From positions 1 to 64,000 of the forward strand of contig PQAM01000018.1 in assembly GCA_003104975.1 (NCBI GenBank): a DNA stretch of 64,000 bases, in the 5' to 3' direction. Each line of letters opens with the position of its first letter. Positions within the stretch are counted from its first letter, which is position 1. The notes under the pieces were generated by a model, which had not been told where the DNA came from, did no database searches, and was given only the letters and a program-made list of their open reading frames with translations. Position numbers and translations under genes: made by a program. This stretch comes from Candidatus Methylomirabilota bacterium. Lineage in GTDB: Bacteria; Methylomirabilota; Methylomirabilia; Methylomirabilales; Methylomirabilaceae. Positions 16,664 to 46,544 of this stretch are shown one piece after another.

Positions 16664-18628
16664 ATGGCAAACGCGCACAAGCCAAGACGACCGTCGCAGG
16701 CGACCCGATGGAAAACGCCTCACCAGGCCTCGCGTCCTCTTCAAGCGGCCCGCAAGCGGGGGGTCCAGAGCAAACAGCCCAAGACCGAGGCGGCCCCGAC
16801 GACCTCCCCGGTCAGGAATACCCGAAACGCTGCGGGCGCCAAAGACGCCAAGAAGCCGATGACGGCGGCCACCGAGGCGATGAGAGAGGGAATCAAGCCG
16901 CTGGTGTCGCTCGGGCGGAAAAAGGGCTACCTGACCTACGAAGAGGTGAATAGCTTTCTGCCGGAAGAGGTGACCTCCGGCGACCAGATCGATAAGATCC
17001 TGAATCTGTTCGATGAGATGGATATCGAGGTCGTCGATGAGGCCCAGCGCGCAAAGGCCGCCAGATCGCCTGCGCCCCAACGGGAAGAGGAAAGCGCCGA
17101 GGCGGAACCCGAGCTGATGCCGTCGACCGTCGGTCGAACCGACGACCCGGTTCGGATGTATCTGCGGGAGATGGGGAAAACCCCGCTGCTGACGCGTGAG
17201 GGAGAGATTCAGATTGCACGGCGGATCGAGGAAGGCCACAAAGAGGTTGCTGAGGCGGTCTGCCAGGCGGGGGTCGCAGTTCGGGAGATTGTCGAGATCG
17301 GAGAGCGGCTCTTGCACGGCAAGGCACGGATTTATGAGTTACTCTCGCTCAATGAGTTTGACGAGATCTCGGAGCAGAAAGAGCGCGAACTGCTGACCGA
17401 GCACACTCCGACTATCGAGGCCCTTCGGGATGAGCAGTTAACGATTGATAAGCTCCGGCGTCGATATCAGCGCGGCGTCGGGCGCCTCAGCGAACGGTGG
17501 CAGCAGAAAGCCCTGGACGAGTTGGCGCGCCGGAAGGCGGCGCAGGCCACGCTGATTCGACAGCTTCATGTGAACCAGCGCGTCATCGAACGGGTGGTGG
17601 CCCGGATTCGCAACCTCCTGGAACGGATCGAGTACGGCGAGCAGGAACTGCGGGAGGTGGCGCGGGTCCGCCGCCTGTCGATGGAGGATATCAAGGTCAT
17701 TTCAGGCAACGGCCGGGGCAGAACAACCGCCATACGAGAGATTCTGCGTCGAACCGGCCTCGACCGCAAGGGGCTGGATGAATGTGAACGCGACGTGACG
17801 GCCATCCAGCGCAAGATCCGGCGGGTTGAAGAAGAGGCCGATGCCACCGGCAAGGAGCTGCGATCGCTGCTGCATGCCATCACGAACGGCGAGCGAAAGG
17901 CGCATCTGGCCAAAAAGGAGATGGTAGAGGCCAATCTCCGCCTGGTGATCAGCATCGCCAAGAAATACACCAATCGCGGCCTCCAATTCCTCGACCTGAT
18001 TCAGGAAGGGAACATCGGCCTGATGCGGGCCGTCGATAAGTTTGAATACCAGCGAGGCTATAAGTTCAGCACCTACGCGACGTGGTGGGTCCGCCAGGCG
18101 ATCACACGGGCCATTGCCGATCAGGCCCGGACCATCCGGATCCCCGTTCACATGATCGAGACCATCAACAAACTGACGCGCGCCTCGCGGTACCTGGTCC
18201 AGGAGTTCGGCAGGGAGCCGACACCCGAGGAGATCGCCCAGAAGATCGATCTGCCGGTCGATAAGGTCAGGAAGGTTCTGAAGATTGCACAGGAGCCGAT
18301 CTCGCTGGAAACGCCCATCGGAGAGGAGGAGGGATCCCACCTGGGCGACTTCATCGAGGATAAGGCGGTCATCTCCCCCATCGACGCCGTCATCGGCATG
18401 AACCTGAGCGGTCAGACCGAGCAGGTCCTCGAAACCCTGACGGAACGGGAGCAAAAGATCCTGAAGCTCCGGTTCGGACTGGGGGATGGACGCGATCACA
18501 CCCTTGAGGAGGTCGGTCAGCAGTTCGACGTCACCCGCGAGCGAATCAGGCAGATCGAGGCCAAGGCGCTCCGGAAACTCCGCCATCCCACGCGGAGCAG
18601 AAAACTGAAGAGCTTTGTAGAATCCTAG
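16664..18628 (+). CDS. rpoD: Primary sigma factor RpoD (sigma-70)
   Basis: The 654-residue housekeeping sigma factor. A Lys/Ala/Pro-rich N-terminal extension precedes region 1.1 ([17 protein letters not shown]), region 1.2 ([18 protein letters not shown]), a long non-conserved insert, region 2 ([40 protein letters not shown] at about 415-480), region 3 and region 4 with the helix-turn-helix [27 protein letters not shown] precedes the ATG. It follows dnaG in one direction. Confidence 0.97.
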
Positions 18629-30178: not shown

Positions 30179-30299
30179 TCGGGACCGACCGGGCACGTCC
30201 TGGTGGGGCGAGGAGAGGCCAGCGTAGTGTCTCAGGCGGCCCTTTTCAGTGATCGTCATTCCGGCCAAGCCCGCATCGCGGGCGCGAGCCGGAATCCAG
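30162..30299 (+). repeat. Dispersed repeat R2, copy d
   Basis: GCGCATCATCGCGGTGATCG through TGGGGCGAGGAGAGGCCAGC and CAGTGATCGTCATTCCGGCC to GAGCCGGAATCCAG. It separates two ORF6N genes and ends 12 bases before the second one's ATG. Confidence 0.75.
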
Positions 30300-30310
30300 G
30301 AGGTTGACCG

Positions 30311-30766
30311 ATGAGTGCACGGGGTGCTCTGAGTCCGGCGCCCAGCGTTGAGCGGCGCATTCTTTCCATCCGCGGTCAACGCGTGATGCTCGATGCTGAT
30401 CTGGCAGCCCTTTACGGGGTATCAACGCGGGTCCTCAACCAGGCGGTGAAACGGAACCCGGAACGCCTCCCCGAGGATTTCATGTTCCGTCTGACGGGAG
30501 CGGAGAAGGCAGAGGTGATCACAAACTGTGATCACCTCCGACCACTTAAGTTCTCCCCCGCTCTCCCCTATGCCTTTACCGAGCACGGGGCCATCATGCT
30601 GGCGAGCGTCCTCAATACACCAATCGCGGTTCAGGCCAGCGTGCAGGTCGTCCGGGCCTTCGTTCGGCTTCGGGAAATGCTGGGTAAACGATCGGCTTAC
30701 CGGTGTCTTGATGTAACAGCAGCCGACACTCAACGTAGGCTGATAGTGCAGATGGGATATGGATAA
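30311..30766 (+). CDS. ORF6N-domain protein, C-terminally truncated
   Basis: A 151-residue product from ATG 30311. Residues 14-120 match the ORF6N domain (SVERRILSIRGQRVMLDADL, LYGVSTRVLNQAVKRN, YAFTEHGAIMLASVLNTP), but homology ends at FVRLREML; the following residues (GKRSAYRCLDV...) are unrelated and the usual DKPRRSIGFRVEE end is absent. The reading frame then overlaps the start of cas3 by 8 bases. This marks the left edge of the CRISPR-Cas block. The palindrome 30512-30538 reads ITNCDHL here, in a different frame from most other copies. Confidence 0.7.
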   Translation: MSARGALSPAPSVERRILSIRGQRVMLDADLAALYGVSTRVLNQAVKRNPERLPEDFMFRLTGAEKAEVITNCDHLRPLKFSPALPYAFTEHGAIMLASVLNTPIAVQASVQVVRAFVRLREMLGKRSAYRCLDVTAADTQRRLIVQMGYG

Positions 30767-34966: not shown

Positions 34967-35481
34967 GTACATTCATCGAATGGCTGGAAAACCTAAACGA
35001 AAAAGACACCAAGGTGCGAGCGGTATTGAGGCGTAGTCTTGCTTTTGATCCGGGAGCATTTGTGCCCGCTTATCCCTATGTTGAACCCTTCCTGAAAGGC
35101 GAGGACAACTCCTGGCGGAGGGGAATGCTCTACCTTGTGGCCGGCCTTTGGGCTGCACACTGGTTGCAGGGCCGTCAGGGCGCACCGATGCCCATCGGGA
35201 GGGCCTGTGCGGCATACCAGGCGGCAAGCAACTCCGCCAGCACCGAACGCCGCTTCATCACGCTGCTTGATTCGGACGGTGATCAGTTGCCCCATAGGCT
35301 GCGTCAGATAATTGGGCTGCTCAAGGAATACGCCATCGACTTTGAAGCCCTGCTGCAAGGGCTGTTGTATTGGAACGACGACCGCAAACGCACTCAAAAC
35401 TCCTGGGCGCGCGATTTCTACCGGCATTTGAATACCGAAACAGAAGAACAACTCACGACCCAAGAGGAGGTATCGCTGTGA
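34963..35481 (+). CDS. casB: Type I-E Cascade small subunit Cse2/CasB
   Basis: A 172-residue helical small subunit starting at GTG 34963, overlapping the casA stop. Features of the family: VRAVLRRSLAFDPG near the start, YLVAGLWAAHW, and RLRQIIGLLKEYAIDFEALL with YWNDDRK. Two copies line the Cascade belly and stabilise the R-loop. Confidence 0.9.
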   Translation: MSTFIEWLENLNEKDTKVRAVLRRSLAFDPGAFVPAYPYVEPFLKGEDNSWRRGMLYLVAGLWAAHWLQGRQGAPMPIGRACAAYQAASNSASTERRFITLLDSDGDQLPHRLRQIIGLLKEYAIDFEALLQGLLYWNDDRKRTQNSWARDFYRHLNTETEEQLTTQEEVSL

Positions 35482-36644
35482 AGACGCTCATCGAGATTCA
35501 CGCCCTGCAGAACTTTGCCCCGTCGAACCTGAACCGTGATGACACCGGTGCGCCGAAGGACGCCCTTTTTGGTGGGACCCGCCGCGCGCGTGTGTCCAGC
35601 CAGTGTCTCAAGCGGGCGGTGCGCCAGTACTTCAAGGGATTAGTCGAGAACGGGTCGCTGGCGTCGGACGATGTCGCCCTCCGCACCAAACGCGTCCTGG
35701 ATGCCATAACAAAATCCTTAGTCGAAAAGGGGCGCGCTAAAGTGGAAGCGACCGAGAAGGTACGCCAAGCACTGGCGGCCATAGAGCTTTCCGTCAAGGA
35801 GGATGGAAAGAGCGAATACCTCTTATTTTTGGGACAGCACGAAATCGCCAGCATAGCCGACATCATTGATGAGAAGTGGAATTCCATTACTGCAGCCGAT
35901 ACTCACCCTACAGAGGGAAAGAAGGCAGGCAAGGCGAAGAAGCAAGCCGCTCAGATCGCTGATCCAGAACTGAAGAAGGCGCTCGACAAAGTGTTCAACG
36001 GCGGCAAGGCTGTGGATGTCGCGCTCTTCGGACGCATGCTGGCCGATATGCCCGAGAAAAACCAGAACGCAGCATGTCAGGTGGCCCATGCCATCTCGAC
36101 TCACTCCGTCGAGCGTGAGTTTGATTTCTATACTGCGGTGGACGACCTGAAGCCAGAAGACACCGCTGGCGCCGACATGATGGGTACGGTCGAGTTCAAT
36201 GCCGCCTGTTTCTATCGCTACGCCGTGGTGGATTGGGAAACGCTGGTGGCAAATCTCCAAGGGGACAGGGAGCTGGCAGCCAGGGGACTACGGGCCTTTC
36301 TGGAAGGATTTATTGTCGCCGAACCTACCGGCAAGCAAAACACTTTTGCGGCTCATAATCCGCCCGAGTTCGTGGCTGTGTCAGTGCGTCGCAACACCGC
36401 ACCCCACAATCTTGCCAACGCCTATGAAACAGCTATTCGCGCAAAGAAGGATGAGTCGCTCACCAGAAGGTCGGCAGAGGAGCTTGCCAAGAAAGCAAAG
36501 GCTCTGCGTGCTGTATACGGTGGTGAGGAGAAAACCTTTGTCATTAATCTGGCCGAGGCCACACTTGATGGATACGGTAGTCCTATGACTTCCCTGAAGG
36601 ATCTCCTCGACAATAGCTTAAAAGCCGTAGCCGTAAAGGAGTAA
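35478..36644 (+). CDS. casC: Type I-E Cascade backbone subunit Cas7e/CasC
   Basis: A 388-residue backbone subunit (six copies wrap the crRNA). The GTG at 35478, overlapping the cse2 stop (GTGA) with AAGAGGAGG upstream, gives the conserved start KTLIEIHALQNFAPSNLNRD; a longer frame runs back to 35370 but lies in cse2. DALFGGTRRARVSSQCLKRA is a signature. Includes the thumb region and the C-terminal GYGSPMTSLKDLLD. Confidence 0.94.
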   Translation: MKTLIEIHALQNFAPSNLNRDDTGAPKDALFGGTRRARVSSQCLKRAVRQYFKGLVENGSLASDDVALRTKRVLDAITKSLVEKGRAKVEATEKVRQALAAIELSVKEDGKSEYLLFLGQHEIASIADIIDEKWNSITAADTHPTEGKKAGKAKKQAAQIADPELKKALDKVFNGGKAVDVALFGRMLADMPEKNQNAACQVAHAISTHSVEREFDFYTAVDDLKPEDTAGADMMGTVEFNAACFYRYAVVDWETLVANLQGDRELAARGLRAFLEGFIVAEPTGKQNTFAAHNPPEFVAVSVRRNTAPHNLANAYETAIRAKKDESLTRRSAEELAKKAKALRAVYGGEEKTFVINLAEATLDGYGSPMTSLKDLLDNSLKAVAVKE

Positions 36645-36647
36645 GGT

Positions 36648-37325
36648 ATGCCTACCTTACTGCTATGTCTGGTGGGTCCCATGCAGTCGTGGGGTACCAC
36701 TAGCCGCTTTGATCAACGCGATACCGGGAAGGAGCCCAGCAAGTCCGGTGTACTCGGATTGCTGGCTGCTGCGCTGGGAATTGACCGCGAGAATTGGACC
36801 GAACTGGAACCGCTCACGCGCTTAGTAATGGGGGTCCGTCATGATCGTCCGGGTGTCCCCAGGCGCGACTATCAAACAGCGGGCTGTGCAGCATCCGATA
36901 CCATCATTAAGGCGGATGGAACTCAGTCCAAAGATGGGGTCGTTTCCCAGCGTTTCTATCTTGCCGATGCAGCTTTTCTAGTGGGACTGGAATGCGAGGA
37001 CCGATCTCTTCTGGAAAGGATTCACGCCGCTCTGCGCGATCCCGTCTGGCCCTTGGCGCTGGGCCGCAAATCCTACGTACCCTCCGAACCGATCTGGATT
37101 GAGAACGGTGTGCAGGATGTTCCATTGCGAGACGCCTTGACACGATGGCCGTGGATCTCCACACGGCGAAAATGGGAAGAGTCCCCCGAGAAGCTATTAG
37201 CCTCCTTCGAGTCCAAAGACGGCTCAGGCGTACTCAAAATGGACCAGCCGTTGTCGTCGTTTGCCGAACGCCGATTCGGGGCGCGTTACATGCGCTCGGA
37301 GTGGATTCCCTCCCTCATGAGGTAA
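36648..37325 (+). CDS. casD: Type I-E Cascade subunit Cas5e/CasD
   Basis: A 225-residue RAMP-fold protein that caps the 5' handle of crRNA. Start PTLLLCLVGPMQSWGTTSRFDQRDTGKEPSKSGVLGLLAAALG-type motif: key parts GPMQSWG, RFDQRDTGKEPSKSGV and the later YYL-like QRFYLADAAFLVGLE and LGRKSYVPSEPIW. Three bases after casC. Confidence 0.93.
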   Translation: MPTLLLCLVGPMQSWGTTSRFDQRDTGKEPSKSGVLGLLAAALGIDRENWTELEPLTRLVMGVRHDRPGVPRRDYQTAGCAASDTIIKADGTQSKDGVVSQRFYLADAAFLVGLECEDRSLLERIHAALRDPVWPLALGRKSYVPSEPIWIENGVQDVPLRDALTRWPWISTRRKWEESPEKLLASFESKDGSGVLKMDQPLSSFAERRFGARYMRSEWIPSLMR

Positions 37326-37328
37326 CCC

Positions 37329-38003
37329 ATGTTTCTGCATAGAATCCATCTTGATCCGCGTTGTAGGGAGGCCAGACGAGACCTGTCCGATCCCTACCAG
37401 CTTCATGCCACATTGTGTCGGGCCTTCTGCCCGCCGGACCGTGAATGCCCGGAAGGTGAAATCTTGTGGAGGCTCGAGCCGGAGACCGATCCCGATGGTT
37501 GTCCCCGGATTCTTGTTCAGAGCCGAACGATCTCGGACTGGACAGGAATCGGCGTGAAGGGATGGCTGGCGAAGGCGGATCCGCCCATCGATCTGAAGAG
37601 CCGCCTCAAACTTGATTCACTCAAGATCGGTCAGCGCTTTCGTTTCAGGCTGCGGGCCAATCCTTGCGTCACCCGTAATAGCAAGCGACTAGGATTGCTA
37701 CGACTAGAGGAACAAGAACAATGGATTGCGCGAAAAGGACACCTGCACGGATTTTCGCTTCCACAACTGCCTTTCTTTGATCTCACGGAAGCACAACGGG
37801 AGCGGATTGATGTACGGGTTTCCCAAGAACAGATGCTCCGGGGTACACAGCATGCTGGAAATAGTATTCGGATTTTTTCGGTACTCTACGACGGGGTTCT
37901 CTTGGTAAACGAACCAGCCAAATTCAGGAATACCCTGCAAACAGGCATCGGGCACGGCAAGGTTTTGGGATTGGGGCTCCTATCGGTGGGACCAATAGTA
38001 TGA
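37329..38003 (+). CDS. casE: crRNA endonuclease Cas6e/CasE
   Basis: A 224-residue RNase that cuts pre-crRNA within each repeat and keeps the 3' hairpin. N-terminal HRIHLDP and the likely catalytic histidine in PYQLHATLCRAF; a glycine-rich loop (TGIGHGKVLGLGLLSVG) near the C-terminus and SVLYDGVLLV are characteristic. Its substrate is the hairpin repeat of the adjacent array (CCCCACGCGCGTGGGG stem). Follows casD by three bases. Confidence 0.93.
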   Translation: MFLHRIHLDPRCREARRDLSDPYQLHATLCRAFCPPDRECPEGEILWRLEPETDPDGCPRILVQSRTISDWTGIGVKGWLAKADPPIDLKSRLKLDSLKIGQRFRFRLRANPCVTRNSKRLGLLRLEEQEQWIARKGHLHGFSLPQLPFFDLTEAQRERIDVRVSQEQMLRGTQHAGNSIRIFSVLYDGVLLVNEPAKFRNTLQTGIGHGKVLGLGLLSVGPIV

Positions 38004-38078
38004 GGACACTCTGGTATCGGGTCGGCCAAGGCCTTCGGGTGCGGGCTGATGTTGGTGCGACGATTGTGATGCATACGT

Positions 38079-39288
<1,210 letters not shown>

Positions 39289-39379: not shown

Positions 39380-39896
39380 GTGTTCCCCACGCGCGTGGGG
39401 ATGAACCGTTGCGGAATCGGATCACGGACTGGGTGAACGCGTGTTCCCCACGCGCGTGGGGATGAACCGCCTATGACGTGATCGTGGCCCGCGTCAATGC
39501 GGTGTTCCCCACGCGCGTGGGGATGAACCGTGGTATGGATGTGAAAGAGACTTGCAGGTACGGTGTTCCCCACGCGCGTGGGGATGAACCGGCTGTCAAG
39601 GGATTGTGCCGGGGCGTCAAACAGTGTTCCCCACGCGCGTGGGGATGAACCGACCCCGAGCTTCGTCCACAGGACCGTCTCCTCGTGTTCCCCACGCGCG
39701 TGGGGATGAACCAGCCGCTTTCCTGCCGTGGCTCGGTGATCCGACGTGTTCCCCACGCGCGTGGGGATGAACCGGCGAAAGCCAGAGCAAAAACCTCAGC
39801 GTAAGGGTGTTCCCCACGCGCGTGGGGATGAACCGGCCACGCTCGTGCCCAATGTGATTGCCTATTCGTGTTCCCCACGCGCGTGGGGATGAACCG
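39380..39896 (+). CRISPR. Type I-E CRISPR array, 9 repeats and 8 spacers
   Basis: Nine 29-base repeats start at 39380, 39441, 39502, 39563, 39624, 39685, 39746, 39807 and 39868, exactly 61 bases apart, with eight 32-base spacers. The repeat opens GTGTTCCCCACGCG and closes GTGGGGATGAACCG; its stem CCCCACGCG/CGCGTGGGG is the Cas6e hairpin. Repeat six ends in A (39713) in place of G; the others are identical. All spacers differ and none was seen elsewhere in the window. The uniform distal repeat suggests a young or recently shortened array. Confidence 0.98.
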
Positions 39897-39937
39897 GGCA
39901 CGATAAGCGCACTCCCACCAATGTTAAATCTGTTAGA

Positions 39938-40117
39938 TGGCGTGACGTGAGGACGGATACACAGGTCCGTCCCTGCAAGATGTCATGACCGTCCCGCCAG
40001 GAGCACACCACTAAAAGGTTTCCACTGCGGGGTGACCGACGATCTGACATCGGACCCGGGTGGACGCACCCGAGGGCGCAATGAATTGCGCCCCTACAGA
40101 TCACCCGGGCGCGGGGA
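39938..40117 (+). repeat. Dispersed repeat R3, copy i
   Basis: The element opens with GGCGTGACGTGAGGACGGAT, includes CCAGGAGCACACCACTAAAA, TCTGACATCG, a hairpin GGGCGCAA-TGAA-TTGCGCCC and CACCCGGGCGCGGG. Nearly the whole sequence recurs at 44316; partial or diverged copies are at 40961, 41573 and 43469. It lies between the CRISPR array and the first toxin/antitoxin unit. Confidence 0.85.
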
Positions 40118-40145
40118 GCAACACCTATATTTGGAGGAGCAGACC

Positions 40146-40382
40146 TTATAATTCGTCTCGCTCCTCGGGTTTCACATCCCTTACCTTGGCCATGGCGCGC
40201 TCAAATTTCCTGCGACTGCCCCGCGTGGCGCGTTCATTCAGATACTCAGCGGTCGTCAGCGCTGATAATTTCTCCGCCAGTGCCGTGGTGATCAGTTGGT
40301 TGATCGACACGTCTTCTTTCTTGGCCAATTCCCGGACACTCTTATGAAGCGAGGCCGGGAGACGCAAGCTGATCGTGCTCAT
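40146..40382 (-). CDS. Ribbon-helix-helix antitoxin of a PIN toxin pair
   Basis: A 78-residue protein starting with ISLRLPASLHKSVRELAKKE and containing DVSINQLITTALAEKLSAL, the HicB/CopG-type ribbon-helix-helix signature. The C-terminal tail is basic and would contact the toxin. Its ATG overlaps the stop of the upstream PIN gene by four bases, so the toxin comes first, as is usual for this PIN subfamily (COG1569). Confidence 0.8.
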   Translation of the reverse strand: MSTISLRLPASLHKSVRELAKKEDVSINQLITTALAEKLSALTTAEYLNERATRGSRRKFERAMAKVRDVKPEERDEL

Positions 40383-40804
40383 GGCACACCTCCTATCGCT
40401 CGTAGAAACTCTTTGGGCGTTACCACACGAATACCAAATTGCTCTGCTCCTGCGAAATCGCGAACGTTATAAGTCACGATGACATCGCATCCAGCCGTCA
40501 CGGCAAGTTCCAACACATGATCGTCTTGCGGATCCTTCAGGAATGGCCGCCAGAGGAAGTGAATAGCACGCTTACGAGCCACACGACAGATATAATCGAG
40601 GATATCATCAATGTCTGCGTGAGTCAGTCCAACTTCCCGCGCGATCCGTTTCGCCGCATCCTCCCATTCCACGATCAGCGGAACCGAGATGGTGATGTCA
40701 AACATCCCACGGTCTAGTAACATGAACAGTCGGTGGGACGCGCCCCGGCGTGAACGCAGAGCGGAGATAAACACGTTGGTATCGATAACGATCTGCCGCT
40801 TCAT
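40379..40804 (-). CDS. PIN-domain toxin (COG1569-type)
   Basis: A 141-residue PIN nuclease. The ATG at 40804 gives KRQIVIDTNVFISALRSRRG, the standard start; the open frame extends upstream without a good site. Active-site acids: D in VIDTNVF, E in LIVEWEDA, D in DPQDDHVLELAV and D in VTYNVRDFAGA. Probably an RNase toxin held by the downstream RHH antitoxin. Confidence 0.85.
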   Translation of the reverse strand: MKRQIVIDTNVFISALRSRRGASHRLFMLLDRGMFDITISVPLIVEWEDAAKRIAREVGLTHADIDDILDYICRVARKRAIHFLWRPFLKDPQDDHVLELAVTAGCDVIVTYNVRDFAGAEQFGIRVVTPKEFLRAIGGVP

Positions 40805-40960
40805 TTCGGTATCATATACGATACCGTTCCATCGGTCAAGATGATCGTCACCGAAGTCGGCAACGATGGCACTGCGAAGGCCACCCCTTACAGCCGCCAG
40901 CAAGTTAGCGGCACATCATCCCACACCCTTGTGCGAAAGGGAGGAAGGCTGGTGGACGGG

Positions 40961-41148
40961 CACAAGGGTGGATACGCAGGGCCGCCCCTATAGGAGGTAA
41001 TGGCCTCCCCGGTAGGGGTAAACTGTCAAAAGGGTGTCTACCGGTGGGGTGATTGACGACCTGACATCGAACGGGGAGGGACACACCCCAGGGCGCAATG
41101 CATTGCGCCCCTACAGGTCACCCGGGCGCGGGTGAGGGGATTGACGGA
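40961..41148 (+). repeat. Dispersed repeat R3, diverged copy ii
   Basis: Aligned parts: CAAAAGGGTGTCTACCGGTG, GGGTGATTGACGACCTGACA, the hairpin GGGCGCAA-TGCA-TTGCGCCC and CACCCGGGCGCGGG followed by GGGGATTGAC. It lies between the PIN pair and the AbrB-type gene. Bases 40805-40960 hold the region upstream of the PIN gene with no other gene. Confidence 0.7.
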
Positions 41149-41203
41149 GGCCTGAGCGGCCGGAATGAGAAATGGGGTAGCGGAGCGTGCGATGGTTACG
41201 AGG

Positions 41204-41482
41204 TTAACCAGCGGACCTTAATGACTTCCTCGACGGCTCGGAACTCCTGATCGTACGGCGGAGTTCCTCGCGATGCTCTTGCCGGAGATCACCCGTCAAC
41301 GAGAAGGATCCCGTGAGAAAGCCGGTGGCAGCGGCGATCGGGTCGGTGGGGACTGGCGACAGGATCAATCGTCCCTCCTCTTCGGTCAACTGGACTTTTG
41401 CGCCCGGTTTCAAGCCGAGCTTGCGGCGAATGGCCTTCGGGACCAGCACTTGACCCTTTTGGGACAGTTGGGTAATAGGCAT
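41204..41482 (-). CDS. AbrB/MazE-type DNA-binding protein, orphan antitoxin
   Basis: A 92-residue protein from ATG 41482 with a SpoVT/AbrB swapped-hairpin domain: ITQLSQKGQVLVPKAIRRKL and LKPGAKVQLTEEEGRLIL. The C-terminal part (GFLTGSFSLTGDLRQEHREE) resembles the toxin-binding tail of antitoxins paired with PIN toxins, but no toxin gene is adjacent on either side. It may be an antitoxin that lost its partner. Confidence 0.8.
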   Translation of the reverse strand: MPITQLSQKGQVLVPKAIRRKLGLKPGAKVQLTEEEGRLILSPVPTDPIAAATGFLTGSFSLTGDLRQEHREELRRTIRSSEPSRKSLRSAG

Positions 41483-41572
41483 GGTTTTTCCTCCAATTCT
41501 AAAAAACGGTAACATAACAATATGTCGTATGCAATTATCTTTTTCGGTTCCTCTATGGCACGGGATGTCGGA

Positions 41573-41646
41573 CGAGCATGAACCCACCCCAAGGCGCAAT
41601 GAATTGCGCCCCTACAAAGCAACCGGACGCGGGCGCGTGGATTGAC
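41573..41646 (+). repeat. Partial R3 copy iii ending in a CRISPR-like motif
   Basis: AGGCGCAA-TGAA-TTGCGCCC, then CGGACGCGGGCGCGTGGATT and GAC. The last 20 bases resemble the 3' half of type I-C CRISPR repeats (GGGCGCGTGGATTGAAAC). Confidence 0.65.
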
Positions 41647-41658
41647 CCTTCGAGTGCC

Positions 41659-41720
41659 GCTCGTGTCCGGCGTCGGAAGTACGGTAAGGGAGGCATGGGA
41701 ATCCAGCACCCCTATGATGG
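41659..41720 (+). repeat. Repeat R4, copy 1
   Basis: GCTCGTGTCCGGCGTCGGAA, GTACGG and TGGGAATCCAGCACCCC-TATGATGG recur with few changes at 43400-43461. In both places R4 follows a CRISPR-like GCGCGTGGAT element by about 20 bases. Confidence 0.65.
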
Positions 41721-41721
41721 C

Positions 41722-41766
41722 CTGGATTCCGGCTCGCGCCCGCGTTGCGGGCTGGGCCGGAATGAC
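41722..41766 (-). repeat. R2 core in inverted orientation
   Basis: CTGGATTCCGGCTCGCGCCC through GGGCCGGAATGAC is the reverse complement of the R2 palindrome end found at 25018, 28940 and 30258. It links the ORF6N island and the TA island. Confidence 0.7.
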
Positions 41767-41811
41767 GGCAGGAAAGAGGAGTCTCTCGGCCGGCGTCACG
41801 CCAGCGCGCTG

Positions 41812-42198
41812 CTAATGGCGGGAGTGCGTCCTCAGGAACTCGACGATCGCGGTCTTCCCGATCTTCCCTTGCGCTAGATCCAGAACGGTCTCGACCAGCA
41901 GCTCATTAGAGACCTTTACTTCAACCTCGTTTAGCTCAAGAAAGACCATTGCCGCAGCGGTACCGACGCGCCTGTTGCCGTCAACAAACGGGTGGTTTTG
42001 CACAATATGGAACAGGTAGGCAGCCGCCATCTCGAAAAGATCGGTATGCAGGAACTCGCCACCAAAGCTTGCCTGAGGCATGGCGACGGCTGGCTGCAAC
42101 AGACCCATGTCCCGGATGCCGGCGCTGCCGCCATACCGCTCGATCATATCCCGATGGATTCCGATAACCTCATCAAGGCTCAGAAAGACGACCGACAT
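41812..42198 (-). CDS. doc: Doc-type Fic-fold toxin
   Basis: A 128-residue death-on-curing protein. It has the Fic/Doc motif HPFVDGNRRVGTAAA with the catalytic H and the Doc-type residues, and the N-terminal LDEVIGIHRDMIERYGG. Doc phosphorylates elongation factor Tu and stops translation when free. It follows its AbrB-type antitoxin by 3 bases. Confidence 0.92.
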   Translation of the reverse strand: MSVVFLSLDEVIGIHRDMIERYGGSAGIRDMGLLQPAVAMPQASFGGEFLHTDLFEMAAAYLFHIVQNHPFVDGNRRVGTAAAMVFLELNEVEVKVSNELLVETVLDLAQGKIGKTAIVEFLRTHSRH

Positions 42199-42201
42199 GC
42201 G

Positions 42202-42429
42202 CTAATCTGCCAGGCGTTTCAGGGCCTTGCCGTAGCGTGTGTTGACCTTCTCCAGTGCGGTTCGAAATCGTATGTCTCGCTCCGGATCACGCACCGGGGT
42301 CACGATCAGACACTTGCCGTCGGTCGTCACCGATAGGGGGGTGTCGGCATTGATCTCAAGAAGGTCTAACACCCCGCGATCGATCACAAGGGCCAGGCTG
42401 TTACCATGCTTGGCCAGGTGCTTCACCAT
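42202..42429 (-). CDS. AbrB/MazE-type antitoxin of Doc
   Basis: A 75-residue protein from ATG 42429, preceded by AGGAGGG. The AbrB domain is VKHLAKHGNSLALVIDRGVL followed by INADTPLSVTTDGKCLIVTP; the tail (FRTALEKVNTRYGKALKRL) fits the Phd-like toxin-binding segment of antitoxins paired with Doc. An upstream in-frame ATG is possible, but the ribosome site favours this one. Confidence 0.85.
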   Translation of the reverse strand: MVKHLAKHGNSLALVIDRGVLDLLEINADTPLSVTTDGKCLIVTPVRDPERDIRFRTALEKVNTRYGKALKRLAD

Positions 42430-42533
42430 AGCGATCCCTCCTCTCATGGTGACTTGTCGTACTAACAGTGTAGTATCCCCTCTGTTCGGTGTCAACTCGG
42501 CTGGTCAACGCGCATACGCCGGGCTCCACGTCC

Positions 42534-42565
42534 GTCGCGCCCCGCGCGGGCGCGTGGATTGAAAC
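42534..42565 (+). repeat. Solitary type I-C-like CRISPR repeat
   Basis: A 32-base sequence that begins GTCGCGCCCCGCGCGG and ends GCGCGTGGATTGAAAC, the form of type I-C repeats, including the conserved GTGGATTGAAAC end. No second repeat lies at a spacer distance. The resident cas genes are type I-E and their repeat is unrelated. It lies just beyond the left (3') end of the MazEF unit. Confidence 0.75.
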
Positions 42566-42635
42566 GGGAGCGTAGCGGCCCTCGTGATGGAGGTCAGAGG
42601 TTGCTACTCGCCTTGGGGTTAGGATGCGGCAGACC

Positions 42636-42986
42636 TCAATCCTCGACGATGTCAAGGATCTCCCTGATTGATTCGGCTACCCTGGCCATCAGAGGGTTGG
42701 AGAGCCGGACTATCGGGCCTTGAATGAGGCGCCGATTGTCGATCGCCCGGAGTTGGTCGATCAACAGGTCGGAGTCACGGCGTAGCCTGCCGGAGGCGGG
42801 GACACGAATCCTGAGCGGCTCGGCGTCGGCAACCACGTTGGTGGTCAGCGGAATAATGATCGTTGATGGATGGGTGGCATCGAGGAGGGCCTGAGACTGG
42901 ACGATAAGGACAGGGCGCGTTTTGCCTGGCTCAGTACCGCGTTGAGGGTCTAAATCGGCCAACCAGACCTCGCCCCTATTCGGCAT
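42636..42986 (-). CDS. mazF: MazF/PemK-type endoribonuclease toxin
   Basis: A 116-residue mRNA interferase; the ATG at 42986 gives PNRGEVWLADLDPQRGTEPG, and KTRPVLIVQSQ, TIIIPLTTNV and DQLRAIDNRRL complete the PemK pattern. It cleaves mRNA at specific sequences when the antitoxin is degraded. It overlaps the antitoxin gene by 11 bases. Confidence 0.92.
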   Translation of the reverse strand: MPNRGEVWLADLDPQRGTEPGKTRPVLIVQSQALLDATHPSTIIIPLTTNVVADAEPLRIRVPASGRLRRDSDLLIDQLRAIDNRRLIQGPIVRLSNPLMARVAESIREILDIVED

Positions 42987-43215
42987 CAGGATCTCGCTCG
43001 ATGGCGGCGAACTCGGCGTTGATGCGCATGCTCTCCTCCCGGATCTTCCGCGAGACGTCAACGAGGCGCTTGGCGCGCAGACGCGCGCGGGTCTCGCGGT
43101 TCATCTGTTCAATGGCGTGTCGGATGTACTTGGCCCGGGATACCTTGAGGGCTTCGGCGCACCGGCTACTGGCCTCGAGGAGATCATCGGGAAGTTTGAG
43201 AGAAATCGCTCCCAT
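42976..43215 (-). CDS. Antitoxin of the MazF-type toxin (RHH family)
   Basis: A 79-residue protein with a ribbon-helix-helix opening (ISLKLPDDLLEASSRCAEAL, KVSRAKYIRHAIEQM) followed by a charged tail. It precedes and overlaps mazF, the standard order, and would repress the operon and neutralise the toxin. Confidence 0.85.
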   Translation of the reverse strand: MGAISLKLPDDLLEASSRCAEALKVSRAKYIRHAIEQMNRETRARLRAKRLVDVSRKIREESMRINAEFAAIERDPDAE

Positions 43216-43357
43216 GGGTCACCTATAAGATATATGGTTTCAATATCATATGAAAATATCCCATGTGGATCTACGATGCAAGTCTTTTCTCCTCGCTTCG
43301 TGAAAGGAGGCGCACCAACACCCTTGCAGTTTCCCGGGTTCGGGTCCCGACACTCGC

Positions 43358-43389
43358 GCCGCGGCCCGCGCGGGCGCGTGGATGGAAAC
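43358..43389 (+). repeat. Degenerate type I-C-like CRISPR repeat
   Basis: GCGGCCCGCGCGGGCGCG followed by TGGATGGAAAC: the same repeat as 42534 with TT-to-TG in GTGGATTGAAAC and changes near the 5' end. Single; R4 copy 2 follows 11 bases later. Confidence 0.6.
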
Positions 43390-43399
43390 GACGAGCACA

Positions 43400-43461
43400 G
43401 CTCGTGTCCGGCGCCAGAAGTGCGGTCAGCGGGGGGTGGGAATCCCGCACCCCGATGATGG
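43400..43461 (+). repeat. Repeat R4, copy 2
   Basis: GCTCGTGTCCGGCGCCAGAA, GTGCGG and TGGGAATCCCGCACCCC-GATGATGG; about 85 % like copy 1 by eye. Confidence 0.65.
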
Positions 43462-43468
43462 AGGGAGG

Positions 43469-43532
43469 GATGCGCACCCTGGGGCGCAATGAATTGCGCC
43501 CCTGCAGATCACCCGGGCGCGGGCGCGTGGAT
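43469..43532 (+). repeat. Partial R3 copy iv ending in a CRISPR-like motif
   Basis: CACCCTGGGGCGCAA-TGAA-TTGCGCCC, then CACCCGGGCGCGGGCGCG and TGGATT. It ends 30 bases before the stop codon of the VapC-type gene. Confidence 0.7.
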
Positions 43533-43561
43533 TCCAGCAGGTCAGTGTCACGGAAATCTCT

Positions 43562-43993
43562 TCAACGGTTCACAGGCAGGTCTTCGACCCAACAGAGGAC
43601 TCGTTCCAAGGGGGTACCGGTTAAGGCCTCTACGAGCTTACGGTCGCTGGTGACGAGTTGGGCGTCGAGAGTGATCGCCAGCGCGAGATAGATGCAGTCG
43701 TACAAGCTGTGTTGGAGTTCCAGCGCCATGTCGAATGCGGTAAGGAGTACGGGCTCATCGGCATGCAACCTTACCGGCAATCTCGACACCTCGCGCTGTA
43801 ACGCGTGGGCTTCCCGGGGCGTAATCTCCCCTCGTCGGACAAGCTTACATAGAACGCTATTGAGCTCTAACTGGAAGAGTGCGGGCGCGTGCAGCACGGT
43901 CCCCGCTGCTCGCAGCCGTCGTGCGGCCTCACTGTGGACCTCAGGAATGAACCATTTCACGCCGATACTCGCATCGACCACATAGGCGCTCAC
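43562..43993 (-). CDS. VapC-type PIN-domain toxin (second)
   Basis: A 143-residue PIN ribonuclease: D in YVVDASIGVKWFIPE, E in FQLELNSVL, and D residues in YDCIYLALAITLDAQLVTSDRK (visible as SLYDCIYLAL and QLVTSDRK). Toxin of the pair with the FitA-type antitoxin that overlaps its start by four bases. Confidence 0.9.
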   Translation of the reverse strand: MSAYVVDASIGVKWFIPEVHSEAARRLRAAGTVLHAPALFQLELNSVLCKLVRRGEITPREAHALQREVSRLPVRLHADEPVLLTAFDMALELQHSLYDCIYLALAITLDAQLVTSDRKLVEALTGTPLERVLCWVEDLPVNR

Positions 43994-44223
43994 CGATTGC
44001 GATCCTCTCGAATGAGCAGTGCGCTGTCACTGAATCTGCGACCGGAACGCTTGAAGCGGTTAAACATGCGATCAATGCGCTTCCACGCCGCGCCGGCATC
44101 AGGCACGGCCTCCTCCAGGATCGTCTTGGCTTCGGCTTGCAGTGAGCGTTTGTGCTGAGCCGCCCGGCTCTTGAGCCGCTCGACGACCCGATCATTCAAA
44201 TTCCGGACCAAGAGTTGCGCCAT
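43990..44223 (-). CDS. FitA-type antitoxin
   Basis: A 77-residue RHH protein starting at ATG 44223 (GGAGGTG upstream): AQLLVRNLNDRVVERLKSRA and HKRSLQAEAKTILEEAV are the FitA/VapB plasmid-stability signature. Binds the operator and covers the PIN toxin. Confidence 0.88.
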   Translation of the reverse strand: MAQLLVRNLNDRVVERLKSRAAQHKRSLQAEAKTILEEAVPDAGAAWKRIDRMFNRFKRSGRRFSDSALLIREDRNR

Positions 44224-44315
44224 ACACCACCTCCCTATTGTTATGAATGAACCTCTGCTAGCACAATGATAGCGCGCAACTCGCACATGGTCAACGGGCT
44301 CTTAGTCTGTACGAT

Positions 44316-44508
44316 GCTGTGACGTGAGGATGGACGCACAGGTCCGTTCCTGCTGGATGTCATGACCTTCCCGCCAGGAGCACACCACTAAAAGGTTTCC
44401 ACTGCGGGGTGACTGACGACCTGACATCGCAGCGGGAAGGGCACGCACCTGGAGCGCAATGAATTGCGCCCCTACAGGTCACCCGGGCGCGGGCGCGTGG
44501 ATTGAAAA
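44316..44508 (+). repeat. Dispersed repeat R3, copy v, ending in a CRISPR-like motif
   Basis: Near-full-length match of copy i: GCTGTGACGTGAGGATGGAC, CCAGGAGCACACCACTAAAA, GGTTTCCACTGCGGGGTGAC, the hairpin AGCGCAA-TGAA-TTGCGCC and CACCCGGGCGCGGGCGCG then TGGATTGAAAAC. It closes the TA island; the ABC-F gene follows. Confidence 0.85.
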
Positions 44509-44530
44509 CCGGCTGCAGGCCCCTTGACGT

Positions 44531-44570: not shown

Positions 44571-46544
44571 ATGATTTCCATTCAACAGGTATCTAAGCGC
44601 TTCGGCGGCCGCGTCCTGTTCAAGGACGCCTCCCTGCGGATCGGCCTTGAGGACCGGGTCGCGCTGGTCGGACCCAACGGAGCGGGGAAAACCACCCTCC
44701 TGGAGATGATCGCGGGACGCATCGCCCCCGACAGCGGCGTCATTGCGATCAACAACAAGGCCGTGATCGGTTACCTGACCCAGGAGTTGGAGGCCCATCA
44801 GGGTCGGTCGGTGTTGGAGGAGGTGCTGACCGGCGGCTCGGAGGCATCCTCGATTGAGCGGCATCTCCGCCTGCTGGAGGAGGAGATCGCGACGGCCCCG
44901 CCGGAGGCGGTCGACGAACTGCTCTCCCATTACGGCGACCTCCAGACCAAGTACGAGCAGCTCGGCGGGTATGCCCTGGAGGCCCGGGCCAAAGAGATCC
45001 TTACCGGTCTCGGGTTCAAGGAAAAACATTTCTCCCGCACCCTGGATCATTTCTCCGGCGGCCAGCGGATGCGCGCATCGCTGGCCCGATTGCTGCTTTC
45101 CTCTCCTGATGCCCTGCTGCTGGACGAGCCGACGAACCATCTGGATCTGGAGTCGGTCATCTGGCTGGAGAAGTTCCTGGCCGGATACGCCGGCGCGATC
45201 CTGCTGATCTCCCACGATCGGAACTTCATGAACCGACTGGTCAACCGGGTGGTGGAGGTGGAACACCGGCAACTGATCGCCTATACCGGCAACTACGATC
45301 AGTATGTCTCCGCCAAGGCCGAGGCCAAGCAGATCCTGGAGGCGACCGCCAAGAACCAGCAGAAAAGGATCGAGGAGACCCAGGCCTTCATCGACCGGTT
45401 CCGGTATAAGGCGACCAAGGCCCGCCAGGTCCAGAGTCGGATCAAGCTGCTGGAGAAGATGGACAAGGTGGAGCTGACCCCTCAGCAAAAACGGGTCCGG
45501 TTCTCGTTTCCGGAGCCGCCACGGAGCGGGGAGACGGTGATCCGGCTGATCAACGTCGATAAGTCCTATGACGGTAACCCGGTCTACCGCGACCTGAATG
45601 TCGAACTACGCCGGGGAGAGCGCGTGGCCCTCATCGGTCCCAATGGGGCGGGGAAATCGACGCTGCTCAAGCTGCTGGCGGGCGTCCTGCCCTTCGAGCG
45701 GGGGGAGCGGGTGTTGGGCCATCACGTGACGACCGCCTATTATGCCCAGCACCAGTTGGAGCTGTTGACCCCTGCCAATACGGTCCTGGACGAGATCACC
45801 GCGGCCGCGCCCACGGAAGAGTCGTCCTTCCTGCGGGCCATTCTGGGTCGATTTCTCTTCTCCGGCGACGACGTCAAAAAGAAGGTGGCCATCCTGTCCG
45901 GCGGAGAGAAGAGCCGACTGGCCCTGGCCAAGATGTTGATCCGACCGGCTAATCTTCTCCTGTTGGACGAGCCGACCAACCACCTGGATATTCCCTCTCG
46001 CGATGTCCTGGAGGAGGCGCTGCGCGATTTTCCGGCCACAATCTGTTTCATCACGCATGACCGGCACTTTATCCGGGCCGTGGCCAACCGGATCATCGAT
46101 GTGCGGGACGGCGCAGCCACGCCCTATGCCGGGGATTACGATTACTACCTCTACAAGCAGCACCTGATGGCGGAAGAGACGGCCGACCGCTCTCAACCTC
46201 AACCCGCACCGACTAAGGGGCCGGTCCAGCCGGCACAGCGGCCCGAAGTGAAGGAGGGGCCGGCGAGGGAACGAAAGACCAAGGGGCAAAAACGGGCCGA
46301 GGCCGAGACGCGAAACCGAATGCACCGGCAGTCGAGCCTGCTGCGGTCGTCGCTGTCCACAATCGAGGCGGAGGTGGCCGAGGCCGAAAAGATCCTGGAG
46401 GAGCTGTCCCATACGCTCGCCGACCCGGAGACCTACCGAAATAAGGAGCGGTTCCGCGATGCGCTGGACCGACACGCGCAGACCAAGCGGAGGGTGGCCG
46501 AATTGACGGCCGAATGGGATCGCCTCTCCGGCCAGATTGCGTGA
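44571..46544 (+). CDS. ABC-F family ATPase
   Basis: A 657-residue protein with two ATP-binding cassettes and no membrane segment. Cassette 1: Walker [10 protein letters not shown], signature [10 protein letters not shown], Walker [16 protein letters not shown]. Cassette 2: [37 protein letters not shown]. The P-site linker (about residues 240-310) and a C-terminal coiled coil (Uup-type) are present. ABC-F proteins act on ribosomes, in translation control or antibiotic resistance. It has no ribosome site in the predicted 4-base leader. Confidence 0.93.

Follow-up and report, generated by a model that had tools for sequence, protein, structure and literature searches.

The window analysed here, a stretch of 64,000 nucleotides from a Candidatus Methylomirabilota bacterium (assembly GCA_003104975.1, contig PQAM01000018.1), contains a toxin–antitoxin (TA) island at 39929–44508, in which five TA units are each flanked by repeats. 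The island is adjoined by type I-E cas genes and ends at an ABC-F gene. Its features are listed below; G numbers denote genomes of the genus Candidatus Methylomirabilis.

35370–39288, plus strand: type I-E cas genes adjoining the island (PADLOC matches)
35370–36644, plus strand: Cas7e (PADLOC match)
36648–37325, plus strand: Cas5e (PADLOC match)
38079–39002, plus strand: Cas1e (PADLOC match)
38980–39288, plus strand: Cas2e (PADLOC match)
39380–39895, plus strand: type I-E CRISPR array, 9 repeats of 28 nt with a 61-nt period
39929–40119, plus strand: R3i, a long R3 copy terminating in a strongly degenerate I-C repeat
40146–40807, minus strand: TA unit 1, HicB-like RHH antitoxin (40146–40382) and PIN_3 toxin (40379–40807), from Pfam
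40980–41144, plus strand: R3ii, terminating in a degenerate I-C repeat (about 41112–41144)
about 41194–41253: PIN toxin remnant of unit 2 (blastn against G008)
41204–41485, minus strand: TA unit 2, lone MazE/AbrB antitoxin (Pfam)
41560–41648, plus strand: R3iii, including a degenerate I-C repeat (about 41616–41648)
41812–42435, minus strand: TA unit 3, Fic/Doc toxin (41812–42198, Pfam) and AbrB/MazE-like antitoxin (42202–42435)
42534–42565, plus strand: IC1, a solitary type I-C CRISPR repeat with the same sequence as the G005 array repeats
42636–43215, minus strand: TA unit 4, PemK/MazF toxin (42636–42989, Pfam) and RHH antitoxin (42976–43215)
43358–43389, plus strand: IC2, a solitary degenerate I-C repeat (36.9 bits in the I-C scan)
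43463–43538, plus strand: R3iv, including a degenerate I-C repeat (43507–43538)
43562–44223, minus strand: TA unit 5, PIN/VapC toxin (43562–43993) and FitA-type RHH antitoxin (43990–44223), from Pfam
44306–44508, plus strand: R3v, terminating in a degenerate I-C repeat (44477–44508) directly ahead of the ABC-F gene
44571–46544, plus strand: ABC-F gene, the right-hand anchor of the island

The initial annotation had recognised five consecutive TA units on the minus strand, and both their coordinates and their content prove correct, with Pfam assigning them to TA families. They comprise four pairs and one orphan antitoxin, all predicted from Pfam to be type II modules. The antitoxin of unit 3 scores below its Pfam cut-off (17.3 bits versus 24.7), as does the RHH antitoxin of unit 4, and the Doc/AbrB pair of unit 3 is a conserved unit in relatives. 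Unit 2 is a MazE unit from which the PIN toxin gene has been deleted, 60 bp of that gene still aligning to G008 by blastn. In all three broken pairs recognised (G000, G013 and G005) the toxin is gone and the antitoxin is retained. G005 also holds a zeta relic, a broken toxin beside which no antitoxin is recognised, and this case tells against the recombination and addiction reading given below. The shared orientation of the units holds in the window and is a local property: in relatives, Phd/VapC units and units of HVO_A0114, which we take to be an antitoxin, are reversed.

The repeats reported at these units are equally real. R3 is present in five copies over 73 nt, R3i and R3v matching over a further 131 nt (88%), and R3 matches longer than 40 nt in the same genome are confined to the five island copies. 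Each R3 consists of a palindrome joined to a degenerate type I-C CRISPR repeat; R3 and the copies annotated as 'I-C-like' share their right ends, and the latter are whole I-C repeats. The repeat end, GGGCGCGTGGATTGAAAC, occurs three times in this genome at no more than one mismatch, always inside the island, and four times in the window at no more than two mismatches, versus 0.00 in 100 shuffles. The I-C matrix scan does not list R3i, R3ii or R3iii, and the I-C part of R3i and R3ii is recognisable by homology to R3v only. The window repeats are I-C repeats in array orientation, and the solitary repeats other than IC1 are more or less degenerate. Two of them, IC2 and R3iv, lie to the left of unit 5. 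Regular repeat–spacer periodicity is absent in the window, where gaps measure 117–992 nt; the G009 island keeps one repeat–spacer–repeat at normal spacing. The suspicion that some of the repeats are CRISPR-like was sound, and they can now be identified as fossils of a type I-C array, a structure which occupies this locus in relatives and there adjoins islands of like kind.

The inner palindrome of R3 behaves differently from its I-C part. On its own it is dispersed over 20 sites outside the island in the same genome (E <= 0.01) and is REP-like in being a short palindrome at many genomic sites. A link between the palindrome and TA genes was rejected: with PIN genes representing the TA families, and two overlapping core hits on contig C8 counted once, a PIN gene is found within 500 bp of one of the 20 outside copies (0.37 expected) and within 2 kb of two (1.19 expected). 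Random placement of R3 with respect to TA genes, which the initial annotation had named as evidence against a cassette system, therefore applies to the palindrome as judged by PIN genes; it does not apply to the I-C part, which is restricted to the island in this genome.

TA units with solitary I-C repeats are found in 10 of 15 genomes of Candidatus Methylomirabilis, mostly fragmentary assemblies with one closed. The members of this genus are methane-oxidising bacteria. The islands usually have the trailer of an I-C array on one side and the ABC-F gene on the other, the latter matched at E <= 1e-100 in 12 of the 15 genomes, that of the window included. A matrix trained partly on the solitary island repeats themselves yields 29 solitary plus-strand hits of at least 10 bits in 12 islands (37.8 kb), versus 0.18 expected from resampled sequence; this count leaves out array members at regular spacing, and rises to 31 if the repeats terminating the arrays of G008 and G004 are added. 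On the minus strand there are two hits, both of 11.9 bits, at one orthologous site in G008 and in G014, a genome which nearly duplicates G008 in these comparisons. The G006 island has four further solitary I-C repeats. Related genomes had been proposed as the place to look for the repeat end, and it is indeed present there, on island, array or cas contigs with the exception of one degenerate copy at G009:C13. The idea that Doc-family TA units carry a repeat of their own was rejected, since no I-C repeat of at least 16 bits is found at the Doc locus of G011 or at six Doc loci outside the genus (L181–L186, about 3.3 kb each, taken from six of 14 out-of-genus genomes whose Doc match reaches E <= 1e-30).

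Exactly one TA unit or relic is contained in 23 of 24 curated repeat-to-repeat intervals that measure 400 nt or more, a count for which the repeat and gene coordinates and the 400-nt threshold were set by hand after viewing the data, which includes R3i, R3ii, R3iii and one G006 repeat known from alignment only, and which is generous in accepting HVO_A0114 and the zeta relic, itself below cut-off, as TA. Stricter naming, without HVO_A0114 (two intervals) and the zeta relic, gives 20 of 24. TA-free intervals measure 34–343 nt, with one of 719 nt. G003, with one repeat, and G012, where the contig ends, contribute no interval, and the stretches from the last repeat to the ABC-F gene, containing 0–3 units, were left out.

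Comparison of the islands indicates that single TA units have been gained, lost and reordered between genomes of the genus, several of the changes falling at a repeat. As strains differ by single units, identical islands without unit exchange, the outcome named as counter-evidence in the initial annotation, are not what is found. In several alignments homology stops at the repeat. At the right edge of AbrB, G009, G005, G006 and G010 are nearly identical as far as the repeat, beyond which lie the ABC-F gene in G009, PIN/MazE in both G005 and G006, and HEPN/MNT in G010. The left edge of Phd/VapC is common to G008, G010 and G006 from repeat base 1 or 2, with three different left neighbours, and the homology of PIN between G004 (HTH to the left) and G006 (AbrB to the left) starts within the repeat. 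The part of G009 that runs from within a repeat as far as the ABC-F gene aligns with the part between repeat and ABC-F gene in G004, a pattern that deletion of PIN/MazE between two repeats would leave. Phd/VapC is the rightmost unit in G005, G010, G003 and G006 and the leftmost in G008 and G014; in G008 it has on both sides a 184-bp segment terminating in the repeat, which is single in G006. Doc/AbrB is 77.4% identical between G006 and G008, versus 90.2% for ABC-F, and 95.8% between G008 and G009, versus 87.1% for ABC-F, a contrast counted in favour of unit-wise exchange. The exchange in G006 seems to break within AbrB, which counts against the repeats as its boundaries.

The CRISPR–Cas genes beside the islands vary in type: I-C in G004, I-E in the window and I-G in G006, with left-side genes common to the window, G004 and G008. 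The repeat of the I-E array (no more than two mismatches) is found only at the window locus among the 15 genomes. Cas8c/Csd1, the criterion for an I-C effector, is matched in five of the 15 (G004, G005, G008, G012 and G013); the genome of the window and G009 have no Cas8c match.

We hold with moderate confidence that the island is the trailer of a former I-C array containing TA operons, most of them lodged singly between solitary relic repeats, in which recombination between repeats shuffles the units and addiction retains them. The repeats, with their neighbouring duplicated tracts, would provide the homology on which ordinary recombination acts. The initial annotation had offered simple homology sites for shuffling as an alternative, and this is the proposal which now fits best. 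Recombination between repeats would delete unprotected spacers and collapse runs of repeats to single ones. Selection would oppose the removal of a TA unit, since the toxin is set free once the antitoxin is lost, and units would thus persist between single repeats. Their movement would draw on the same homology, to judge from the 184-bp direct repeats that flank the relocated Phd/VapC in G008. The TA trailer may, as a by-product, remain in place whilst the adjoining CRISPR–Cas module (I-C, I-E or I-G) is exchanged. More tentatively, and as a possibility rather than an expectation, the repeats could act as homology or capture sites for units moving as blocks, with an addiction-locked trailer docking I-C, I-E and I-G modules in turn. 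Were this true, the island would be both a CRISPR locus stabilised by addiction and a cassette system needing no recombinase of its own.

The TA genes may instead have entered a decaying array singly, the leftover repeats having no role in moving or keeping them. This we consider rather unlikely, although several observations agree with it. Homology-block ends as a whole are no closer to repeats than are random intergenic positions, the difference being non-significant on both sides: the median distance is 66.5 nt for 48 left ends and 52 nt for 46 right ends, whereas the null medians are 35.0 and 34.5, and fractions of 0.998 and 0.955 of the null medians, respectively, are equally low or lower (G014, G012, G001, alignments below 200 bp and ends lying 30 nt or less from the end of a slice left out). 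It is consequently the individual alignments that support repeats as boundaries. A right-hand repeat is not recognised for nine units at the end of the island next to ABC-F (one each in G008, G014, G013 and G010, three in G005 and two in G003), and an I-C repeat is also missing to the left of Doc/AbrB in G003. A MazF/RHH pair in G009, homologous to unit 4 of the window (80.7% over 670 bp), lies beyond the ABC-F gene without a repeat, the homology ending about 60 nt short of the window repeats. Inspection of four genomes by eye shows the 110-nt flank to be better conserved than the hairpin portion of the repeat, and TA genes are common in regions with CRISPR loci, according to PMC4390879. Against passive accumulation stand the single unit in 23 of 24 long intervals, the identical units whose differing neighbours meet at the repeat, and the duplicated segments terminating in the repeat around a relocated unit.

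Site-specific capture, in which an integron-like integrase or Cas1–Cas2 would recognise the I-C repeat end and collect TA cassettes, is improbable. In its favour are edges that in some alignments meet the repeat almost to the base, the single orientation of 29 solitary repeats versus two weak minus-strand hits, and integron-integrase matches over the cut-off in two of the 15 genomes. TA units, however, occur in both orientations, and no recombinase common to the islands was found. Among the matches listed, those over the cut-off are at G013:C37 and G009:C13, neither an island contig. All those in the genome of the window fall below it, the best being on contig C10 and one weak match lying on the island contig, C18, 185 kb away. 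An ORF of G009 looks integrase-like by eye and has no Pfam match; some proteins were entered in that check as their first ~150 residues. Pairs of attC R-cores number 0–1 per island strand, and as loci with integrase matches themselves show only 0–2, this simple motif has little power. Repeats around the integrase loci gave no support for an integron. In G007 a homologue of unit 1 (85.9 and 82.3% protein identity) lies near integrase fragments, and an attC-array-like repeat family was not found at that locus. The integron analogy of the initial annotation is not supported. Cas1–Cas2 integrates at the CRISPR leader, whilst the units lie at the trailer, and the genomes of the window and G009 have no Cas8c match.

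A CreTA-like arrangement, in which solitary repeats yield crRNA-like guides through which Cascade represses TA promoters and so ties TA to CRISPR, would suit the several repeats some 90–300 bp upstream of antitoxin genes and the ectopic degenerate repeats that CreTA employs (PMC9458426), but is most improbable, as the units are protein pairs, Cas8c is unmatched in the genome of the window, and the 34 nt following 30 solitary repeats match their own islands, the only sequences searched, at a mean of 14.0 versus 14.4 when shuffled (one of the 30, in G009, beating all 60 of its shuffles), so that guides are rejected at this sensitivity.

Should the former-trailer reading be right, it would provide a simple route by which CRISPR loci collect TA genes, would help to explain a change of CRISPR subtype beside one island within a genus, and would leave a fossil record of earlier CRISPR systems. 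A published description of TA units between solitary CRISPR trailer repeats was not found in the literature searched, and parallels exist with several known systems. Integron and superintegron cassette arrays are rich in TA pairs; like them, the islands consist of small tandem TA units with a repeated element between, subject to gain, loss and reordering. Unlike them, the repeats are CRISPR repeats, unit orientation is mixed, no integrase adjoins the islands and attC sites are not enriched, albeit in a weak test. In CRISPR arrays, repeats at the trailer end are degenerate and spacers are lost by recombination between repeats. The islands share this degeneracy and, on the reading above, the loss of spacers, but TA operons occupy the places of spacers. 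CreTA, an RNA pair regulated through Cascade (PMC9458426), likewise associates ectopic degenerate CRISPR repeats with addiction; in contrast to CreTA, the islands hold protein pairs, with no guide match and, in the genome of the window, no Cas8c match. A further parallel is found in the Sulfolobales, where vapBC pairs are interspersed in cas gene cassettes and a role in maintenance has been suggested for them (PMC4390879); here too, protein TA pairs are mixed into a CRISPR–Cas locus. Such a role is hard to test elsewhere, whereas one unit in each of 23 of 24 long intervals, strain differences of whole units and the retention of the antitoxin alone in the three broken pairs make it testable in these islands. 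Compared with the Sulfolobales pairs, which lie among cas genes, the units described here lie between trailer CRISPR repeats, are exchanged between genomes, and persist where Cas8c is gone.

The toxin–antitoxin (TA) island beside the ABC-F gene (44571–46544, plus strand) is built of units separated by repeats related to the type I-C CRISPR repeat. The arrangement described in the initial annotation, five TA units on the minus strand, each lying between plus-oriented repeats, was confirmed in the window by repeat comparison and Pfam searches. The boundaries of these units are, from left to right:

R3i
R3ii
R3iii
IC1 (42534–42565)
IC2 with R3iv
R3v

Here R3 is a long repeat comprising a palindrome and an I-C part, and IC a solitary I-C repeat. 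Because R3 ends on its right in a degenerate type I-C CRISPR repeat and IC1 is an I-C repeat, identical to the array repeats of the related genome G005, one kind of element is common to the boundaries of all five units, with the I-C part recognisable in R3i and R3ii by homology only. A search of the organism's own genome (G000; 3.0 Mb, 19 contigs) placed all five copies of R3 within the island, to which the I-C repeat end (at most one mismatch) is likewise confined; Cas8c had no match in this genome. The inner palindrome of R3 is dispersed, recurring at 20 other places in the same genome, where it has no link to PIN genes. The island itself holds two PIN genes in 4.6 kb, one of them below the cut-off, against 0.06 expected from 41 genome-wide. 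A possible lead on the palindrome is a gene in G009 (contig C13; L176, 3997–4707) which looks like a REP-associated transposase; a lone degenerate I-C-like repeat lies about 0.7 kb from it (5371–5402).

Of the 15 genomes of the genus (G000–G014), 12 contain a match to the ABC-F gene at E ≤ 1e-100. Type I-C arrays lie to its left on the same contig in G004, G005, G008 and G013, joined in G004 by the I-C cas genes, and TA units with solitary I-C repeats occupy the stretch between the last regular array repeats and ABC-F. A weight matrix trained partly on solitary island repeats found 29 solitary plus-strand repeats of at least 10 bits (31 if two terminal array repeats are counted) in 12 islands totalling 37.8 kb, against 0.18 expected; the minus strand gave two weak matches. 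In 10 of the 15 genomes one or more solitary repeats accompany the TA units, and units have been gained, lost and reordered among these genomes:

G008 and G014: IC, Phd/VapC, IC, IC, Doc/AbrB, IC, PIN/MazE, ABC-F
G013: MazE with broken PIN, IC, Doc/AbrB, IC, VapC/FitA, ABC-F
G004: HVO_A0114, IC, PIN/MazE, IC, ABC-F
G005: IC, HVO_A0114, IC, IC, zeta relic, IC, Doc/AbrB, IC, PIN/MazE, IC, PIN/RHH, FitA with broken VapC, Phd/VapC, ABC-F
G009: I-C leader-like sequence, IC, another Phd/VapC, ORF integrase-like by eye, weak HsdR-like fragment, IC, spacer, IC, Doc/AbrB, IC, ABC-F, MazF/RHH
G010: IC, HEPN/MNT, IC, Phd/VapC, ABC-F
G003: I-G relic, Doc/AbrB, IC, a third Phd/VapC, Phd/VapC, ABC-F
G006 (75 kb from ABC-F): IC, IC, Doc/AbrB, IC, PIN/MazE, IC, Phd/VapC, IC

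About 12 kinds of unit can be distinguished by our own grouping, some named by eye or below the cut-off (the zeta relic and Phd in G008 and G009 fall below it); the RHH protein of G005 matches no Pfam family, and HVO_A0114 in G004 and G005 is taken here to be an antitoxin. G006 is a single closed contig (2,752,854 bp), and the G012 locus is interrupted by contig ends. No I-C repeat match was obtained in G001, G002, G007 or G011, nor a Doc match in G001. Outside the genus, a Nitrospirae MAG carries a solitary I-C-like repeat (L085, 11368–11399; 42.5 bits) flanked by a transposase fragment and a Mut7-C/PIN-like ORF, each identified by eye.

In 23 of 24 hand-curated repeat-to-repeat intervals of at least 400 nt there is a single TA unit or relic, the exception being G005 377–1095; leaving out HVO_A0114 and the zeta relic lowers the count to 20 of 24. 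One interval of 2693 nt, in G009, holds other fragments besides its TA unit, and the remaining TA-free intervals measure 34–343 nt. Counting against this pattern are nine units at the ABC-F end with no recognised right-hand repeat (one each in G008, G014, G013 and G010, three in G005 and two in G003).

In several alignments the repeat forms the edge of the shared unit. Upstream of AbrB, G009, G005, G006 and G010 (where the contig begins) are almost identical as far as the I-C repeat, and beyond it lie ABC-F, PIN/MazE, PIN/MazE and HEPN/MNT, respectively. Phd/VapC and its left repeat are common to G008, G010 and G006 from the repeat's first or second base, with three different left neighbours, and PIN/MazE homology between G004 and G006 starts inside the repeat, the left neighbour being HTH or AbrB. 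From inside the repeat to ABC-F, G009 aligns with G004 (85.9% over 256 bp, including the ABC-F start), the pattern that loss of PIN/MazE between two repeats would leave. Homology-block ends overall are not nearer to repeats than random intergenic positions (medians 66.5 nt for 48 left ends and 52 nt for 46 right ends, against nulls of 35.0 and 34.5); gaps between genes are short, and homology frequently stops some 50–70 nt ahead of the repeat. A MazF/RHH pair homologous to window unit 4 (42636–43215) lies right of ABC-F in G009 without an I-C repeat (C28; L077, about 17107–17776, ABC-F on plus), its homology ending about 60 nt before the repeats of the window are reached. The case for repeats as edges thus rests on the individual alignments.

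The identities also point to exchange of single units. Between G006 and G008, Doc/AbrB is 77.4% and ABC-F 90.2% identical; between G008 and G009 the values are 95.8% and 87.1%. Identities of PIN/MazE (correlation 0.79, 10 pairs) and Phd/VapC (0.92, 15) track those of ABC-F more closely than Doc/AbrB does (0.57, 28). Doc/AbrB falls into two allele groups, G000 (41812–42435), G003 and G006 versus G005, G008, G009, G013 and G014. The promoter side of the G006 copy resembles the second group, and recombination inside AbrB is therefore likely. G008 has two copies (94.6% identical) of a 184-bp segment with the repeat at its end, one to the left of Phd/VapC and the other to the left of Doc; G006 has a single copy. 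Phd/VapC is the right-hand end unit in G005, G010, G003 and G006 and the left-hand end unit in G008 and G014. Both the duplication and the changed position would fit movement by homologous recombination. Recombination between repeats may delete unprotected spacers and shuffle units, which addiction would hold in place. As addiction predicts, all three broken pairs recognised (PIN in G000 and G013, VapC in G005) have lost the toxin and kept the antitoxin; for the zeta relic of G005, a broken toxin, no antitoxin was recognised.

Left of the island stand cas genes of type I-C in G004, of type I-E in the window and of type I-G in G006. To the left of the I-C cas genes, both G004 and the G008 cas contig carry homologues of the window genes at 23.8–30.7 kb, which suggests that the CRISPR type was replaced in place. 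One such gene is 30299–30682, left of the I-E cas genes, corresponding to L075 2073–2654 in G004, left of the I-C cas genes (PADLOC PDC-S05 match). In G006 (C1:2334000–2352000; L174), the I-G cas genes and array directly adjoin the TA island, with 36 nt, one spacer length, between the last I-G repeat and the first I-C relic. The I-G repeat (at most 3 mismatches of 30) has 24 copies in this array and one in G003, and none elsewhere in the genus. Island relics of it differ at 5 (G003), 8 (G005) and 9 (G013) of 36 positions, and three weaker matches have 13 mismatches, with 0.25 expected at 13 or fewer. The I-E repeat (at most 2 mismatches) is confined to the window's array. A possible I-E relic in G008 and G014 (L049, about 858–877; L050, 40–59; ABC-F on plus) has 2 mismatches in 20 and 8 in 28, with 0.85 matches expected at a looser threshold of 5 in 20.

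CreTA-type guides were not supported. The proposed likeness to integron cassettes was not borne out either: searches for the integrase family, attC-core pairs (a weak test) and repeats around integrase loci found no integron features. Among the matches listed, integron integrases exceeded the cut-off in 2 of the 15 genomes, and those of G000 are fragments that fall below it. Matches in the genus include:

G000:C10:180–1123 and 673454–673819
G013:C37:5082–6026
G007:C27:59363–60215

A close homologue of the window's RHH/PIN_3 unit lies near integrase-like fragments in G007 (C27; L194, 17890–18548), a genome with no I-C repeat match. No published description of TA operons between CRISPR repeats was recognised in the titles and abstract openings of the matches listed, a scope that takes in few subscription papers. 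Of known associations, vapBC pairs are scattered through the cas gene cassettes of Sulfolobales, where they were suggested to help keep the locus in place (PMC4390879); PMC3519859 describes a RelE-like gene adjoining cas1 and cites earlier speculation, and CreTA is covered in PMC9458426.
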